Origin: a virus
IMG/VR virus record: IMGVR_UViG_3300046507_000325
Location: 1 to 25,973 of that record
Length of the DNA stretch: 25,973 nt
Direction: 5' to 3' (one strand)
The notes under the pieces were generated by a model, which did no database searches, had not been told where the DNA came from, and saw only the letters and a program-made list of their open reading frames with translations. Numbering within the stretch: position 1 is the stretch's first letter; each line of letters opens with the position of its first letter. Both the position numbers and the translations under genes were made by a program. Below, piece by piece: positions 11,885-18,133 of this stretch.

Positions 11885-12035
11885 AGCCGTGCTCCCTGCG
11901 GAAGTTGCGCTCAGTGGTGGGTACGTCAATGCCGAGGCTCATGAGCGCTACGGCAGTGTCGAAGGCGATGGCGCCATCAGTCTCGACTTGGCTGCGCGCC
12001 TGAAGGAGCAGGCTACGCAAATGCATATTGGGCAT
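11877..12035 (-). CDS. small conserved phage protein downstream of RNA polymerase, 52 residues
   Basis: ATG 12035 lies within the end of the RNA polymerase gene and follows GAGGT by 5 nt. The protein (MPNMHLRSLLLQARSQVETD, then GAIAFDTAVALMSLGIDVPT) is helical, with the pattern 'L-x-x-AR-x-x-V-x-TDG-x-I-x-x-D-x-A-x-x-LM-x-LGIDV', which I recall as a short protein following the polymerase in marine T7-like phages. Function unknown. The longer in-frame reading to 12116 lacks a ribosome site. Confidence 0.7.
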   Translation of the reverse strand: MPNMHLRSLLLQARSQVETDGAIAFDTAVALMSLGIDVPTTERNFRREHGFD

Positions 12036-14541
12036 GAAGTACCTCTTTGATGTTGAGAGAGCCGCGAAGCTCCGCGAGTGTGTCTGCCAATTCTGACAGT
12101 CGGTCGTTGTGTTCAATCAGGTCACACGTAGCCTGCTGATAGACTTCAGCGAGTACGTCGTGCTGCTCGTACATCTCCACGAAGGTTTCGCGGATGATGC
12201 CTTGGAAGCGCGCCGCATGACTTGGCAGACTGCCGAAGCTGTCATGCACCAGTGCGAACTGAGTGATGCCTTCCCTCCGCGCCGCGTTCACTGTGAGAAG
12301 CAAATGACTAGCGTCACAAGCATGAACGAAGTTGGGCGCGGAGCCGTTCTTTGCACGGTTCTTGTCGATAGGCTTCTGAGAGCCGGTAGCAATCAGAGGC
12401 TCGAAGCGCCTTTGGACAGGCCCGTTAACGCCGTGGTCGTGCATCCATAGCCGCAGGCGCTCAGTGAGAGCTTCGTGGTAGCGATTGCTCCACGGGAGCC
12501 CCACAGGCGTTACCCACTCCAAAGGTCTCCCCGCGTGCGCCATGACGCCTGCGAGTTCTTGGAGGTACTTCATCGCCTTCATCGCCAGCGGTAGCTCGTT
12601 GGCAATCGTGGTGCTGGCGTGTTGAGCCAGGAAGCGAGAAGCTGCGTGCTGCTCCTTGAAGGTCTTGCCGAACGGATGGTCCTTGCGCTTCTTCTTCAGC
12701 ACGTCGCGCCTCAGGGGCTCCATCAGGTCCGTCATGTGCTGTTGAGCCATGCCGAAGCCCTTCGAGCCGTAGAAGGTCGTCATCGTGTTGCGCTTGAAGA
12801 CCTTGCGCCAGTCACCGTCGTAGGCGAGCACCACAGGGGCGATAGGATCACGGGAGAGCGCCATGGCCTTCCGAGCCCCGTCACCAACGAGGGTGTAGAG
12901 GTCGCTAGGCTCCTCACGGTTTGTGAGGTTAACCTTCCAGGCGTCCTCTGAGCGTGTAGCGGCGCACAGATGTTGTGCTCCAGAACACGAGCCGTCCCAC
13001 GAGCACGGTAACGAACAGACGTATTCCGGCCCATAGCTCAGGGCCTTCGTAAGTTCGACGCAAGCTGCAAGGAACAGGAAGGGTTTGTCGGCCTTCGTCC
13101 AGAACGCAAGTCCCTCCGTGGATAAGGGTCCACGGGCGTCCCAGTCCTGCATCGCGCAATCGCGGATGCTGTTCAGATTGTCGTCCACCCATTTGATACG
13201 TTCCTCGTAAGGGCGCTTCGACACCTTGCCTTTGCTGGTGGGGAAGTCGCCACAGTTCGCCACATGCACCTTGAGCCACTGAATGCCCTCCTCCCCGATG
13301 GGCTCACCGTCCTTGAACAGGAACAGCGACCTCACCACGTCTTCACGTTGGAAGTTGAAGGTCGTCAGCGGGTACTCGCGCCCACGCCAATCGAGATTGT
13401 GCGGGATATAGAACTGCTCCATGCCTGCGAGAGCATCGGCAGTTACCAAGTCGTCGTCCAGCTTCATGCGGTCGCGGCGAAGAACTCGGTTCTCCTTCTT
13501 GACCTCTGAGCGCTCGACACGTGCCAGCTTCTTCTCCTCATCGCTGAGGTCATCCCACTCGCCCTCGATCTTGGGCATGGGGATATCGGTGACTGAGGGA
13601 AGCCCCTCGACCTCGACGCCTCGCTGCCTGCACTCCCTGATGACGTTGAGAATGTGCGTGTTGATCCGCCACGGCGTTGCCTGCACGGTGTTCACAGCGT
13701 CGAGCGCTGGCTGCATCTGCCCCGACTTGATGGCGGCCTTCACAGCCACGATGGTCTCGCGGTGGCGCGTCCTAATCAGCGTAGCGAGGCGTCGAGCCGT
13801 AGGGTCCACAGGCCCACCCTTGTTGAAGTCCGTCCACGGCACAGGGGGCTCATCAGATGGCAGGAAGACTGGGAAGCGGCGTATGTGCTGCTTCAGAGCC
13901 TCTTGAGCCTTCTCAGAAGCGCCCTCAGTCACAGCGAGCATCTGTGTGTCGCCGTCGTGGTAGACCTCGAACAGGTCAGGCAGTGTGTATTGCACCACGT
14001 CGAGGACAAGGTTGCCCATGGCGACGTGCTCTTTAGGAGCCCAGCGGTTGACGAACGAGAAGCCCTTCTTGCGGGCCAGTAGGCGCGCTGCCTGCACTCG
14101 GTACTTCAGGTTCCCGTGCTTCTCCTTCACCCACTGCTCAACCTCCGCTTTGATCTTTGGGTCATGGACCTCAAGCTGATGGCTGAACAGTTCGTTGCGC
14201 AGCATGTCGCCAGCGCGCTCACAGATCGCCGTCCAGTTATCCTCCTCAATCACTCCGCGCAGCGCGCAGTTGAGCGCCACGAGGGCGCAGATTTGCTCAG
14301 GGAGTTGCTTCAGCAGCGCCAGGGAGTTCTCGGAGGGCGCGGCAACGCCGTTGCTGGCCTTGACTGGCTGCGACAGCATGACCTTGATAGCGGCTGCAAG
14401 ACGCTCATAGCAGCCCTGCTGGATATGCAGCGCTTCGTTGGTCGCGCCGTAGCCGAAGTTGCGGTTCGTGCGTTCCTTGATGACCTCGAAGCGACGTGCT
14501 GCGGCGTCAATCTCAGCATTGGGTAGTTCGGTCTGTTCCAT
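12013..14541 (-). CDS. single-subunit DNA-directed RNA polymerase, T7 type
   Basis: Phage RNA polymerase that would transcribe the middle and late genes. From ATG 14541 it has 842 residues (T7: 883). Signatures: NLDWRGREYPLTTFNFQ, then SLPCSWDGSCSGAQH with catalytic Asp516, VFKRNTMTTFYGSKGFG with Lys583 and Tyr591 (T7 Lys631 and Tyr639), and FALVHDSFGSLPSHA with Asp767; the C-terminus ends in YAFA, close to the FAFA end of T7. An upstream TTG (14562) would add seven residues without a ribosome site. The leader contains two copies of a motif shared with early genes. Its promoter sequence cannot be identified from this window. Confidence 0.96.
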   Translation of the reverse strand: MEQTELPNAEIDAAARRFEVIKERTNRNFGYGATNEALHIQQGCYERLAAAIKVMLSQPVKASNGVAAPSENSLALLKQLPEQICALVALNCALRGVIEEDNWTAICERAGDMLRNELFSHQLEVHDPKIKAEVEQWVKEKHGNLKYRVQAARLLARKKGFSFVNRWAPKEHVAMGNLVLDVVQYTLPDLFEVYHDGDTQMLAVTEGASEKAQEALKQHIRRFPVFLPSDEPPVPWTDFNKGGPVDPTARRLATLIRTRHRETIVAVKAAIKSGQMQPALDAVNTVQATPWRINTHILNVIRECRQRGVEVEGLPSVTDIPMPKIEGEWDDLSDEEKKLARVERSEVKKENRVLRRDRMKLDDDLVTADALAGMEQFYIPHNLDWRGREYPLTTFNFQREDVVRSLFLFKDGEPIGEEGIQWLKVHVANCGDFPTSKGKVSKRPYEERIKWVDDNLNSIRDCAMQDWDARGPLSTEGLAFWTKADKPFLFLAACVELTKALSYGPEYVCSLPCSWDGSCSGAQHLCAATRSEDAWKVNLTNREEPSDLYTLVGDGARKAMALSRDPIAPVVLAYDGDWRKVFKRNTMTTFYGSKGFGMAQQHMTDLMEPLRRDVLKKKRKDHPFGKTFKEQHAASRFLAQHASTTIANELPLAMKAMKYLQELAGVMAHAGRPLEWVTPVGLPWSNRYHEALTERLRLWMHDHGVNGPVQRRFEPLIATGSQKPIDKNRAKNGSAPNFVHACDASHLLLTVNAARREGITQFALVHDSFGSLPSHAARFQGIIRETFVEMYEQHDVLAEVYQQATCDLIEHNDRLSELADTLAELRGSLNIKEVLHAQYAFA

Positions 14542-14590
14542 CGAATGCTCGCTTTCTGGCAAAGGTGCGGGCCGGATTGGCTAAGTGATT

Positions 14591-14717: not shown

Positions 14718-15034
14718 GATTGTCCCCAGGATTGTCACCGCTGATTGTCACCAAGTGCCCTTGGCACCCGTATCCCCTGCGGTCGCTCCGAAGGGGCGGA
14801 TTGCACTTGTCCAATCAAAATGGGCTTTACTTACAACACACTGGGGGATCAAACACACCTGCATACTGTTCGGTGTGGAACCTAAATCCCCTGCGATGGT
14901 GCGCGCGGAGGGACTTGAACCCCCAATTCCGTAAGGAAATCAGAACCTAAACCTGACGCGTATACCAGTTCCGCCACGCGCGCTTTGTCACCAAAGGGGG
15001 TAATTGGCACCGCTTTGTCACCCGATTTGTCACC
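14718..15034. other. attP: probable phage attachment site (attP) with integrase arm-type repeats
   Basis: Direct repeats of TTGTCACC, all in the same orientation, flank the tRNA-Leu gene. Left: GATTGTCCCC at 14718 (one change), GATTGTCACC at 14730 and at 14743, spaced 12-13 bases. Right: CTTTGTCACC at 14983 and 15013, and ATTTGTCACC at 15025; one more, CTTTGTCACC, is at 15261. Two arms of short direct repeats around a core next to a tyrosine integrase gene is the known layout of attP sites, and tRNA-Leu is the integration target reported for the marine T7-like cyanophage P-SSP7. Inference, not proof; the core would be within the tRNA. Confidence 0.62.
14897..14983 (-). tRNA. tRNA-Leu (anticodon UAG)
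   Basis: Complete 87-base class II tRNA. The acceptor stem GCGCGCG pairs with CGCGCGC, followed by discriminator A and an encoded CCA (14897-14899). The anticodon stem TCAGG/TCTGA encloses loop TTTAGGT, giving anticodon TAG with T33. The long variable arm has TTCC/GGAA, and the T-arm GGGGG/CCCTC encloses TTCAAGT. It is intact, so it could serve as a working tRNA for CUN codons, or be carried as the attachment core that rebuilds the host gene after integration. It lies between the integrase and RNA polymerase genes. Confidence 0.93.
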
Positions 15035-15090
15035 CGGTCAGGGCAACAGTGGATGCCATCTACTACGCCTCTTTTGCGTTGTCTATCCAG

Positions 15091-15273
15091 TCACTTCACG
15101 CTCCCAACAGGGCGCATGTCGATCCAATGCATCGCTTTGATGCGGTCCATAGCGTACACTCCCCTGAGGCGTTCCATCTCCCGTTCACACGCCGCTTCTG
15201 TCTTCAACGGGCCGACGATCAGGTACTCCCTGTGGGCGTCATCGAACATAACTATCACCACTTTGTCACCCAT
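15091..15273 (-). CDS. hypothetical protein coupled to integrase, 60 residues
   Basis: ATG 15273 follows the integrase stop directly and has a near-perfect ribosome site (AAGGAGG, 5 nt). The protein (MGDKVVIVMFDDAHREYLIV, then GPLKTEAACEREMERLRGVY) has a beta strand, then an acidic/basic helix, ending in a polar tail. It lacks an obvious helix-turn-helix, so an excisionase role is a positional guess only; the match to the small phage 'V-G-P-x-x-x-E-x-A' domain is loose. One integrase-type repeat overlaps its start region. Confidence 0.65.
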   Translation of the reverse strand: MGDKVVIVMFDDAHREYLIVGPLKTEAACEREMERLRGVYAMDRIKAMHWIDMRPVGSVK

Positions 15274-16329
15274 CTATGCCTCCTTAGCGTTGTCCACGAC
15301 CACCACAGGCTTGGGCGCGAAGCCCCCGCCGTTGAGCGCAGCCAGGGCCGTGGCGAACGCAGCGCTGTCCTCGAACACGGCATACCGCTCCGTCATCTTA
15401 ATGTCGGAGTGGCCCATGAGCTTCTTGAGGACGCTCAGGGGAACCCCGTTCATGACCATGCGGGAGCCGTAGGTGTGCCGTGTGCAGTAGAGGACAGCAT
15501 CCTCCACCTGAGGCAGTTGGGCGCGCGTGCGCTCCCACAGCCAGCGCATGTAGGGCTTGGTGAGGTCCGTGAACGGTCCCTTCTGGTTGCCCTTGCGCGT
15601 CCTCAGGTCCCTCAAAGCCTCTTGAGCCCTGTTGGACAGCGGCACAGCCCTGAAGCTCCCGTTCTTGGTGTCCCAAAATATCGCACGGTCCTTGTGAATG
15701 TCGTCCCACTTCAGGGCGGTTCCCTCCGTGTAGGTGCGCGCTCCCGTGTCGATCAGGAACAGGAAGAAGGCCATCTCGTCATGCTTCTCCCAAAGCTGCC
15801 AGAGCCCCAGGATGGCTGTCTCCTCCTCGTGGCTGAAGAACCTGAAGCGCCCCTTGTTCTCCTTGAACTTGGGGAACGTCGGGACCTCAGGGAGCTTCTT
15901 CGCCACGCGGTTCATCATGACGCTGATAGCCGACTTGTAGCGGTTCACCGTCGAGCCTGCGACCTCCCGCTCATTGAGGAGGTAGGCCAGGAAGTCGTCA
16001 ATGTTGGACTGCGTGAAGGCGTCGAGGATGCTCATGCCCTCCCCGCACCACGTCACGAACGTCTGCGCGTTCAGTTCGCACTTCGAGCTATCCTTGCCCT
16101 TCGACCAGTGCAGCGTGGCCGTCTCCCGTAGGAGGTTGCCCAGCGTGCCAGCGTCAGAGCCCCCAATGCGCTTCTCGGCCTCAGGGAGCGCCTTGCCCAG
16201 CTTGAGGTTGGAACGGGCCTGAAGCTCCCACGCCTCGCCCTGTGCCTCCGTGTCGTGCATCCGCGTGTGGCGTTCGCCGTTCACCATGAACTTGGTGATG
16301 AACTTGTTGCCCTTTGGGTAGGTGGTCAT
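15274..16329 (-). CDS. int: tyrosine recombinase / integrase
   Basis: 351 residues. An N-terminal AP2-like arm-binding segment (TTYPKGNKFITKFMVNGERH) is followed by a SAM-like core-binding domain (about 60-145) and the catalytic domain. Catalytic residues: Arg198 (DTGARTYTEG), Lys222 (DTKNGSFRAVPL), Arg284 (YCTRHTYGSRM), His307 (LMGHSDIKMT) and nucleophile Tyr316 (ERYAVFE). The usual His three residues before Arg284 is Tyr281 here, a variation that may still be active. It would integrate the phage at attB, probably in a host tRNA-Leu. The ATG at 16329 has a weak ribosome site but follows the leader motif at 16346-16359. Unusual for a T7-like phage and points to a temperate life. Confidence 0.95.
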   Translation of the reverse strand: MTTYPKGNKFITKFMVNGERHTRMHDTEAQGEAWELQARSNLKLGKALPEAEKRIGGSDAGTLGNLLRETATLHWSKGKDSSKCELNAQTFVTWCGEGMSILDAFTQSNIDDFLAYLLNEREVAGSTVNRYKSAISVMMNRVAKKLPEVPTFPKFKENKGRFRFFSHEEETAILGLWQLWEKHDEMAFFLFLIDTGARTYTEGTALKWDDIHKDRAIFWDTKNGSFRAVPLSNRAQEALRDLRTRKGNQKGPFTDLTKPYMRWLWERTRAQLPQVEDAVLYCTRHTYGSRMVMNGVPLSVLKKLMGHSDIKMTERYAVFEDSAAFATALAALNGGGFAPKPVVVVDNAKEA

Positions 16330-16592: not shown

Positions 16593-16997
16593 TCACTTGC
16601 ACAGCCTCCTCGCCGCCTTCATCAGCATGTTCTTGCCCTTGATGGACAAGTGAACCTCGTGCTCTCGAAGGGAGTGAGCGGAGGTCCTGAAGTCCACAAG
16701 CCCCAAGCCCTCCTCGCCCTTGCGTGTCTTCACGCCCAGGTCGAGCATTGCACGGCTCACGGTCGAGGGTGGATAATCCCACTTCTCGCTGTAGTATTTC
16801 TGAGACTTGCCCTCATCGAGAGCGAGCCTCAGGAGCATCTTCACTTGATGCAAAGGAATGTTGGGCCGCAAGGCTTCAAACTGATCTAGCACTTCAGCGA
16901 GACCAGCAAGCACCTTGCGCTCATCGTCGTTGAGTTCAGTCACCCTAGTTCCCTTGCCGCCTGTCAAAACATCTGTGTTTGCAATCTCTAACATCAT
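16593..16997 (-). CDS. MarR-like winged-helix DNA-binding protein, candidate lysogeny regulator
   Basis: 134 residues. From about residue 45: NIPLHQVKMLLRLALDEGKS, then QKYYSEKWDYPPSTVSRAML (recognition-helix region), a wing (GEEGLGLVDFR ... REHEVHLSIKGKNML) and a final helix. The order and the 'P-S-T-V-S-R-x-L-x-x-LG' and 'L-T/S-x-KG' patterns are those of MarR-type winged helices. The family usually represses by binding inverted repeats as a dimer. An inverted repeat just upstream (17011-17027) is a natural target for self-regulation. Being next to integrase, it is the best repressor candidate in the window; this is inference. ATG 16997 follows AGGTGG. Confidence 0.75.
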   Translation of the reverse strand: MMLEIANTDVLTGGKGTRVTELNDDERKVLAGLAEVLDQFEALRPNIPLHQVKMLLRLALDEGKSQKYYSEKWDYPPSTVSRAMLDLGVKTRKGEEGLGLVDFRTSAHSLREHEVHLSIKGKNMLMKAARRLCK

Positions 16998-17178: not shown

Positions 17179-17943
17179 TTATTGCTTGGTGGCTTCAGTC
17201 TCCTTTGACAGTGTGCCCTCGACGTTGAGGAGCGTTCTGCGGACAGCCTTGGCGCTACTGCACAACCAAGGCACTAAGAGGGCCATAGCCACCCACGTCG
17301 CAGCCCTCACGTATTCGTCGGCTGTAGGTATCGAGAAGGCCAGCGCGGGTGGTACGATTAGCAGGTTGCGAGCGAGGGGAAACGCTAGGGCCAGCAGCAC
17401 GGCGTGTGACTGCCCCAGGATTATCGCAGTGCATACCACAGCCACACCCATGAGGATGGAAGCAGTGTGCGGCGGAAAGAACAGCGTCATGAGGTACGCC
17501 AGAGGCACCGTGACCGCGAAGACAGCCCCAACCCACAACAGGCTTGGCGAGGTTCGCACGCAGCGCTTTGGCTTGAACTCGACTAGGCGCGCTAAGACGG
17601 CATCGTCATGGAATGGGACGATGACCAGCAAGTTCCCGTCCAGGCCATTGTGAATACCTTCGAGCAATAGACCGACCTCTCCAGTCACCTTGTCAATGGA
17701 TGCCACATGGCACCGCTCACTCCCTGCCACAAAGGCATAGGGCGATAGGTCCACTGGCGCTGTGAACTCCCAGCGTTGCCCGATGGTGAAAGCCAAGCTC
17801 GCATTGGGCACCACACGGATCGCCATAAAGTCCCCCTCCTCAGTGTCGCATATGTCCCCCGTCGCTTCGTTGATCCATCCCGACTGCACTGCGAGCGTCC
17901 CCGCTACACGATAGAACGCAGGCTTTAGATTGGTTAGTGGCAT
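17179..17943 (-). CDS. multi-span membrane protein with soluble N-terminal domain
   Basis: ATG 17943 gives 254 residues; a longer frame to 18024 overlaps the small upstream gene. Residues 1-150 are soluble and beta-rich (MPLTNLKPAFYRVAGTLAV ... EGDFMAIRVVPNASLAFTIG). Then come membrane segments around LLWVGAVFAVTVPLAYLMTL, ILMGVAVVCTAIILG, VLLALAFPLARNLLIVPPAL and ATWVAMALLVPWLC, and an acidic C-terminus (STLSKETEATKQ-like). No transporter or holin family is recognised. Its place in the early region near integrase makes a host-takeover, exclusion or lysogen-expressed role possible. Confidence 0.72.
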   Translation of the reverse strand: MPLTNLKPAFYRVAGTLAVQSGWINEATGDICDTEEGDFMAIRVVPNASLAFTIGQRWEFTAPVDLSPYAFVAGSERCHVASIDKVTGEVGLLLEGIHNGLDGNLLVIVPFHDDAVLARLVEFKPKRCVRTSPSLLWVGAVFAVTVPLAYLMTLFFPPHTASILMGVAVVCTAIILGQSHAVLLALAFPLARNLLIVPPALAFSIPTADEYVRAATWVAMALLVPWLCSSAKAVRRTLLNVEGTLSKETEATKQ

Positions 17944-17998
17944 TGTCGCATTCCCATAAGCCGCCGCACCGGCCCCATTTGACTTGTTGAGCCCTGCC

Positions 17999-18133
17999 CT
18001 ACTGGGGCAGAACGATAAACGCATATCCCCACCAGTTTGTTCTGGCCTCGTCGCTCGCCTCCTCTCGCGTTGTGTGGTCGAAGCCTACCTCCTGCCACAA
18101 TCCCCGTATTTTAACCAATAGTCTATATGTCAT
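17999..18133 (-). CDS. hypothetical protein, 44 residues
   Basis: ATG 18133 with a weak upstream GAG. It encodes MTYRLLVKIRGLWQEVGFDH, then TTREEASDEARTNWWGYAFI and VLPQ. The beta-strand, 'T-REEA-x-x-EAR' helix, beta-strand pattern is the layout of a common tiny phage domain, so it is probably real. Function unknown. It precedes the membrane protein gene; the intergenic part between 17944 and 17998 shows nothing else. Confidence 0.5.
   Translation of the reverse strand: MTYRLLVKIRGLWQEVGFDHTTREEASDEARTNWWGYAFIVLPQ

Follow-up and report, generated by a model that had tools for sequence, protein, structure and literature searches.

A 25,973-base IMG/VR record (here called the window) contains a complete tRNA-Leu(UAG) gene, surrounded by short repeats, with a tyrosine integrase gene on one side and the gene of a T7-like RNA polymerase on the other. 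This location raises two questions: whether the repeats mark the attachment site (attP) of a temperate T7-like phage, and what a complete tRNA gene does in such a site. The initial annotation had answered that the region is a probable attP, that the repeats are arm-type integrase sites and that the tRNA itself serves as the core. Since the longer relatives of the phage measure 43-45 kb, the window is probably a fragment.

The window encodes, in addition to the RNA polymerase (PF00940), a family A DNA polymerase (PF00476) and a primase-helicase (PF21268 with DnaB_C), which places the phage among the T7-like phages (Autographiviridae). The integrase lies next door to the tRNA as had been annotated, 290 bp away and with a 60-aa open reading frame in between; together with the flanking arm-type repeats its Pfam and PHROGs matches constitute one of the hallmarks of tRNA-dependent lysogeny. 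Its AlphaFold model (pLDDT 67, supporting the broad domain layout only) predicts an N-terminal domain of three strands and a helix resembling arm-binding domains, and Foldseek matched this model, of modest confidence, to lambda Int and XerA at 1e-6. The 60-aa open reading frame (15091-15273, within 15063-15294) is absent from the relatives and is flanked by two imperfect direct repeats, one of the end of the int gene (15274-15294 / 15063-15083) and one of the arm region (15249-15271 / 15001-15023); this region is an insertion or duplication within the P arm. A 281-aa protein encoded elsewhere in the window (17179-18024) has a weak DUF4118 match (PF13493, E 1.5e-6, just under the curated cut-off).

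All six annotated repeats exist, with starts 2 bp later than had been given (14720, 14732, 14745, 14985, 15015 and 15027), and the copy described as carrying a single change does carry one (TTGTCCCC at 14720). The cluster contains five exact copies of TTGTCACC, along with variants, distributed on either side of the tRNA; the arm site reads GGTGACAA on the minus strand and TTGTCACC on the plus strand. Two one-mismatch copies (TTGGCACC) begin at 14761 and 15004; another exact copy begins at 15263. Neighbouring starts are 12 and 13 bp apart on the left, and 30 and 12 bp apart on the right. In the whole window TTGTCACC is the sole 8-mer with at least five same-strand copies inside 310 bp. None of 300 dinucleotide shuffles matched this cluster, the largest shuffled cluster consisting of two copies, and eight exact copies were found on both strands when about 0.8 were expected. 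With arms that exceed chance and are conserved in related phages, the proposal of an attP holds, and the sequence data support the assignment of the repeats as putative arm-type integrase sites. The features of the region are listed in the table, where L002-L006 are loci of close relatives.

Table. Features of the putative attP region and neighbouring genes (window coordinates)
Feature	Position	Strand	Evidence or remarks
T7-like single-subunit RNA polymerase, other side of attP	12013..14562	-	PF00940 E 2e-74
Degenerate P'-side arm-like site GGGGACAA	14720..14727	-	one mismatch
P'-side arm-type site GGTGACAA	14732..14739	-	core distance 147 bp; relatives 148-149
P'-side arm-type site GGTGACAA	14745..14752	-	core distance 134 bp; relatives 135
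Degenerate P'-side arm-like site GGTGCCAA	14761..14768	-	one mismatch
Putative attP core GGGATTTAGGTTCC; overlap TTTAGGT 14880-14886	14877..14890	-	host match, conservation, L007 insertion, loop-core rule
Complete tRNA-Leu(UAG), CCA encoded; proposed replacement tRNA	14897..14983	-	ARAGORN, Rfam
P-side arm-type site GGTGACAA, just upstream of tRNA	14985..14992	-	exact; invariant in 7-phage alignment
Degenerate P-side arm-like site GGTGCCAA	15004..15011	-	one mismatch; relatives similar at same place
P-side arm-type site GGTGACAA	15015..15022	-	exact; conserved, one-base variants in some relatives
P-side arm-type site GGTGACAA	15027..15034	-	exact; equivalent places in most of L002-L006
Tyrosine integrase, 351 aa	15274..16329	-	PF00589 E 5e-15; phrog_1 E 2e-38
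Transcriptional regulator beside int	16593..16997	-	phrog_9665, transcription regulation, E 3e-13

The tRNA between the repeats is complete, as had been stated; ARAGORN found the anticodon UAG and an encoded CCA end, and Rfam RF00005 gave a score of 51.8 bits (cut-off 29). Starting 10 bp beyond this CCA end, the heptamer TTTAGGT repeats the 7-nt anticodon loop of tRNA-Leu(UAG), and this downstream copy is likely to be the crossover site. In five genomes (Hyphomicrobiales) the anticodon arm of the host tRNA-Leu(UAG) matches the core around the heptamer over 14 bp, providing a short sequence common to attP and the presumed host attB, and a 13-bp version (GGATTTAGGTTCC) occurs in tRNA context in 163 of 397 genomes of the order to which R. 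palustris belongs. These matches support tRNA-Leu(UAG) as the target. The annotation had proposed that the absence of a matching host tRNA-Leu would speak against an attP; this does not apply because host tRNA-Leu(UAG) genes do match, through the core and not through the phage tRNA. The phage tRNA as core was rejected because its own loop region matches the host over only 9 bp, as compared to the 14 bp of the separate loop copy. The complete tRNA is ruled out as the core also by its sharing at most 17 consecutive nt with the host genes compared and by relatives that recombined downstream, leaving the tRNA intact.

In the conventional type of attP, identity to the host gene resides in the phage tRNA or in its 3' part, and integration restores the host tRNA. 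This is the usual arrangement: T7-like cyanophages have 39-44 bp in common with host tRNA-Leu (PMC8776855), and in three distant members of the integrase family the integrase adjoins an intact tRNA-Cys (L028, L029) or an intact tRNA-Leu(UAG) that lacks a second copy of its loop (L045), which look like conventional tRNA-restoring or different arrangements. For the window phage such an arrangement is extremely improbable. The longest exact block between the phage tRNA and five host tRNA-Leu(UAG) genes is 17 nt, the anticodon stem differs from that of the host genes at several pairs, and the stretch of about 40 bp of identical tRNA sequence that restoration calls for past the crossover is missing. 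Because the sequence beyond the core is not tRNA-like, the host tRNA would not be rebuilt; relatives recombined at the downstream core instead.

The phage tRNA is best read, from these comparisons, as a replacement gene. A comparison of phage and host tRNAs found every stem pair conserved (20 of 20), nine of them through changes on both sides, including four in the anticodon stem, and this preservation of the fold by paired changes indicates that the tRNAs are under selection. Since the pairs were kept by double changes, the phage tRNA retains its fold with an anticodon stem unlike attB. It was suggested for other phages that the replacement tRNA is altered to avoid being an integration target itself (PMC8631192), and the differing anticodon stem is consistent with this suggestion.

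Seven IMG/VR loci encode an integrase 76-85% identical to that of the window. One (L008) stops at the integrase, and the other six carry tRNA-Leu(UAG) in the same place. In an alignment of seven phages the GGTGACAA sites are conserved upstream of the tRNA and beyond it, as is GATTTAGGT with flanking inverted bases shortly after the CCA end of the tRNA, an element that in the window reads GGGATTTAGGTTCC. The distances of the far-side arms to the core stay within 134-135 and 147-149 bp in the window and L002-L006. L006 and L007 are alike up to the core, diverge exactly at GATTTAGGT and become alike again after a second GATTTAGGT located 1,285 bp further on, showing that the close group holds an insertion at the downstream core and not in the tRNA. 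This insert (7302-8586 of L007, IMGVR_UViG_3300046665_000193), bounded by two copies of the attP core, carries a tRNA-Leu(UAG) of its own in the opposite orientation, together with arm-like sites and an open reading frame resembling a protease (GNSGG motif, recognized by eye), and lacks an integrase. It was found in this single contig only and is possibly a non-autonomous element or the remnant of a second phage. L005 and L007 share one 78,980-bp contig, where two different integrase/tRNA/attP regions are 42.9 kb apart; this contig is a concatenation of two related phage genomes, arising naturally or by assembly.

In four T7-like prophages with readable junctions the loop is the point at which the host tRNA-Leu is broken; about 41-43 kb separate the two halves, and a complete tRNA-Leu copy comes from the phage. 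The prophage of Rhodopseudomonas palustris XCP (L023 in genome G001, NZ_QKQS01000001) resembles the window in the order of integrase, GGTGACAA arms, tRNA-Leu and core and in its T7-like RNA polymerase; it differs in its tRNA-Leu(UAA), its core (CTTAAAATCCC) and its integrase, with 44-45% identity. In the integrase tree, branches other than the window's own group are poorly resolved. The integrase end of the XCP prophage consists of three GGTGACAA sites, the complete tRNA-Leu(UAA) and another GGTGACAA, followed by GTCTTAAAATCCC and the 3' half of the host tRNA-Leu(UAA). The other end, at a distance of about 42 kb, has the 5' half of the host gene, which continues via CTTAAAATCCC into phage sequence. 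Joining the host flanks yields a complete tRNA-Leu(UAA), and joining the phage flanks an attP with the layout of the window.

The same tRNA-Leu(UAA) split was seen in genomes G082 and G022, the same split in tRNA-Leu(CAA) in G991, and the same arrangement on a 14.5-kb element without RNA polymerase in G322. The sequence common to both junctions can be as short as 7 bp (CTTAAAA in G022). Both junctions in the four related prophages show that the host tRNA was not rebuilt; the only UAA stem-loops found in G001, G082 and G022 were those of the phage copy and of the truncated 5' half of the host gene, with no intact second UAA gene in these three genomes. In all four full-length prophages the T7-like RNA polymerase is at the end adjoining the host tRNA 5' half, the position predicted from the gene order of the window. 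Elsewhere in G991 (L108, C1:922078-922432) a tRNA-Leu(UAA) 5' half is cut right after CTTAAAA, with a complete tRNA-Leu(UAA) about 250 bp past it, which resembles the scar that a further replacement would leave in this genome. In G561 a related phage contig is without a tRNA, and the host tRNA-Leu(UAA) is intact.

A strong hairpin, succeeded by a T tract, was found within about 115 bp past the core in 10 of 12 loci (L002-L006, G001, G022, G322, G991 and G585), and none was detected in the window and G082. Such a P' hairpin could block transcription from the host tRNA promoter into the phage RNA polymerase gene in the lysogen. As none was detected in the window, insulation of the polymerase by a terminator is not claimed.

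In all 12 loci of the loop-core set (six UAG, five UAA and one CAA) a second copy of the carried tRNA's anticodon loop is found 10-24 nt past the CCA end of that tRNA, the pairs being UAG with TTTAGGT, UAA with CTTAAAA and CAA with CTCAAAA, and the loops of the other leucine isoacceptors are absent from the core stretch in the same loci. The chance of such a recurrence per locus is about 0.001-0.015 (base-shuffled 40 nt). Being related, the six UAG phages do not count as independent cases; several distant lineages come in with the UAA and CAA loci. No second loop copy was found within 600 nt in LUZ100, RHEph21, L031 and L045. In the window itself the isoacceptor of the phage tRNA is that of the target (UAG tRNA, UAG-type core). 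This agreement bears on the view that the tRNA lies beside attP by chance, either as a relic of imprecise excision, as put forward for phage LUZ100 (PMC10134795), or as an aid to translation or anti-defence in lytic growth, phage tRNAs having frequent links to codon usage or host tRNA cleavage. Such a coincidence is very improbable, as the carried isoacceptor fits the core in every one of the 12 loci, the stem pairs are maintained through double changes, and in G001, G082 and G022 the phage tRNA is the sole complete copy of its isoacceptor found.

Taken at the level of sequence, the arms, core, tRNA, host match, conservation in six relatives, loop-core match in three isoacceptors and split genes in relatives suggest the following course of integration. 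The integrase would bind the arms (GGTGACAA) on both sides of the core, and strand exchange in the window phage would take place within TTTAGGT. On the host side the anticodon arm of tRNA-Leu(UAG), where the 7-nt loop has this very sequence, would serve as attB. Integration would split the host gene in the anticodon loop without rebuilding it, and the phage tRNA-Leu(UAG), 10 bp from the core, would remain at the integrase end of the prophage and take over the lost function, allowing the host to survive. For this phage, integrase binding, the crossover, the identity of the host, and the charging of the tRNA and its necessity for the lysogen are inferred. The window phage thus most likely inserts into the middle of a host tRNA-Leu gene, carrying a complete spare, and the stretch 14720-15034 is very probably the attP of a temperate T7-like phage using tRNA-dependent lysogeny.

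The integrase might alternatively act only transiently, the tRNA being unneeded for long-term survival. Integration without lysogeny has been reported for the T7-like cyanophages P-SSP7 and S-TIP37 (PMC8776855), and scans of genomes and viral contigs revealed no lysogen of the window's close group: a genome scan for integrated copies of the window phage or the close UAG group gave only the 44%-identical XCP prophage, a scan of IMG/VR with a core and P' pattern for UAG-type integrated relatives gave only known contigs, and an overly strict CCA-end pattern search gave no matches. The other prophages came from family, order and class searches. Purely transient integration is nevertheless unlikely, for relatives are fixed as 41-43 kb prophages with RNA polymerase in sequenced genomes, and a replacement tRNA makes sense mainly under stable lysogeny.

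Tentatively, the tRNA gene with the adjacent 7-bp core may be regarded as a retargeting module of about 100 bp. One integrase family might have moved among tRNA-Leu(UAG), (UAA) and (CAA) by swapping both while keeping arms and integrase, and the integrase-less 1.3-kb element of L007 was apparently integrated this way.

tRNA-dependent lysogeny was named and proven experimentally in actinophages, where Fionnbharth and Gaia, like the window phage, have a short core (about 8-17 bp) and encode the same isotype and, as is predicted for the window phage, do not rebuild the host tRNA; unlike the window phage, the actinophages are of other, not T7-like lineages and target tRNA-Lys, tRNA-Ile2 or tRNA-Leu(CAA) (PMC10865867). 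The Paadamvirus-type Rhizobium phages vTRX32-1 / RHEph01 are temperate and Autographiviridae-like, with a 12-bp core (CAGATTTAGGTT) within host tRNA-Leu and a complete tRNA-Leu without the 12-bp motif, proposed as a replacement (PMC8631192). The integrases of RHEph21 and vB_RleA_TRX32-1 are only about 26% identical to that of the window, and the tRNA of RHEph21 lies on the other strand, upstream of int, whereas that of the window is between int and the core. The SAR11 phages uv-Fonsiphage-EPL, HTVC011P and HTVC025P are T7-like, target tRNA-Leu(TAG) (with an 11-bp core in Fonsiphage) and encode a tRNA-Leu said to substitute for the lost function (PMC6811365); they differ in their AT-rich marine hosts and very divergent integrase. 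In HTVC011P we read a recurrence of the loop CTTAGGA after the tRNA (L127, 5592-5800), the core being about 160 nt from the tRNA loop rather than 65-67; the tRNA-Leu(UAG) lacks annotation in that record. Lo5R7ANS-like prophages of Sinorhizobium meliloti AK21 and RU11/001, of podovirus type, disrupt tRNA-Leu(UAG) centrally and carry a tRNA-Leu(UAG) (PMC11476347), whereas Lo5R7ANS differs in its integrase (30% identical), and no tRNA was found within 1.5 kb of its int. The strategy is already known in actinophages and in T7-like SAR11 and rhizobial phages, and the window is a clear further example. The present analysis adds the precise core of this phage, the agreement of loop and core in three leucine isoacceptors, and junctions in several genomes outside those papers; a limited literature search found no published description of these junctions.

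These observations assign a definite function to a phage tRNA that might have passed for a codon-usage aid, a relic or an att core. They also bring well-resolved T7-like phages of Hyphomicrobiales-type hosts into tRNA-dependent lysogeny, whose occurrence outside actinophages had been left open by the 2024 description (PMC10865867). Finally, they provide a simple diagnostic: the 7-nt anticodon loop of a phage tRNA, repeated soon after its 3' end and beside an integrase, singles out T7-like phages that are temperate and allows both attB and the isoacceptor to be predicted from raw sequence.
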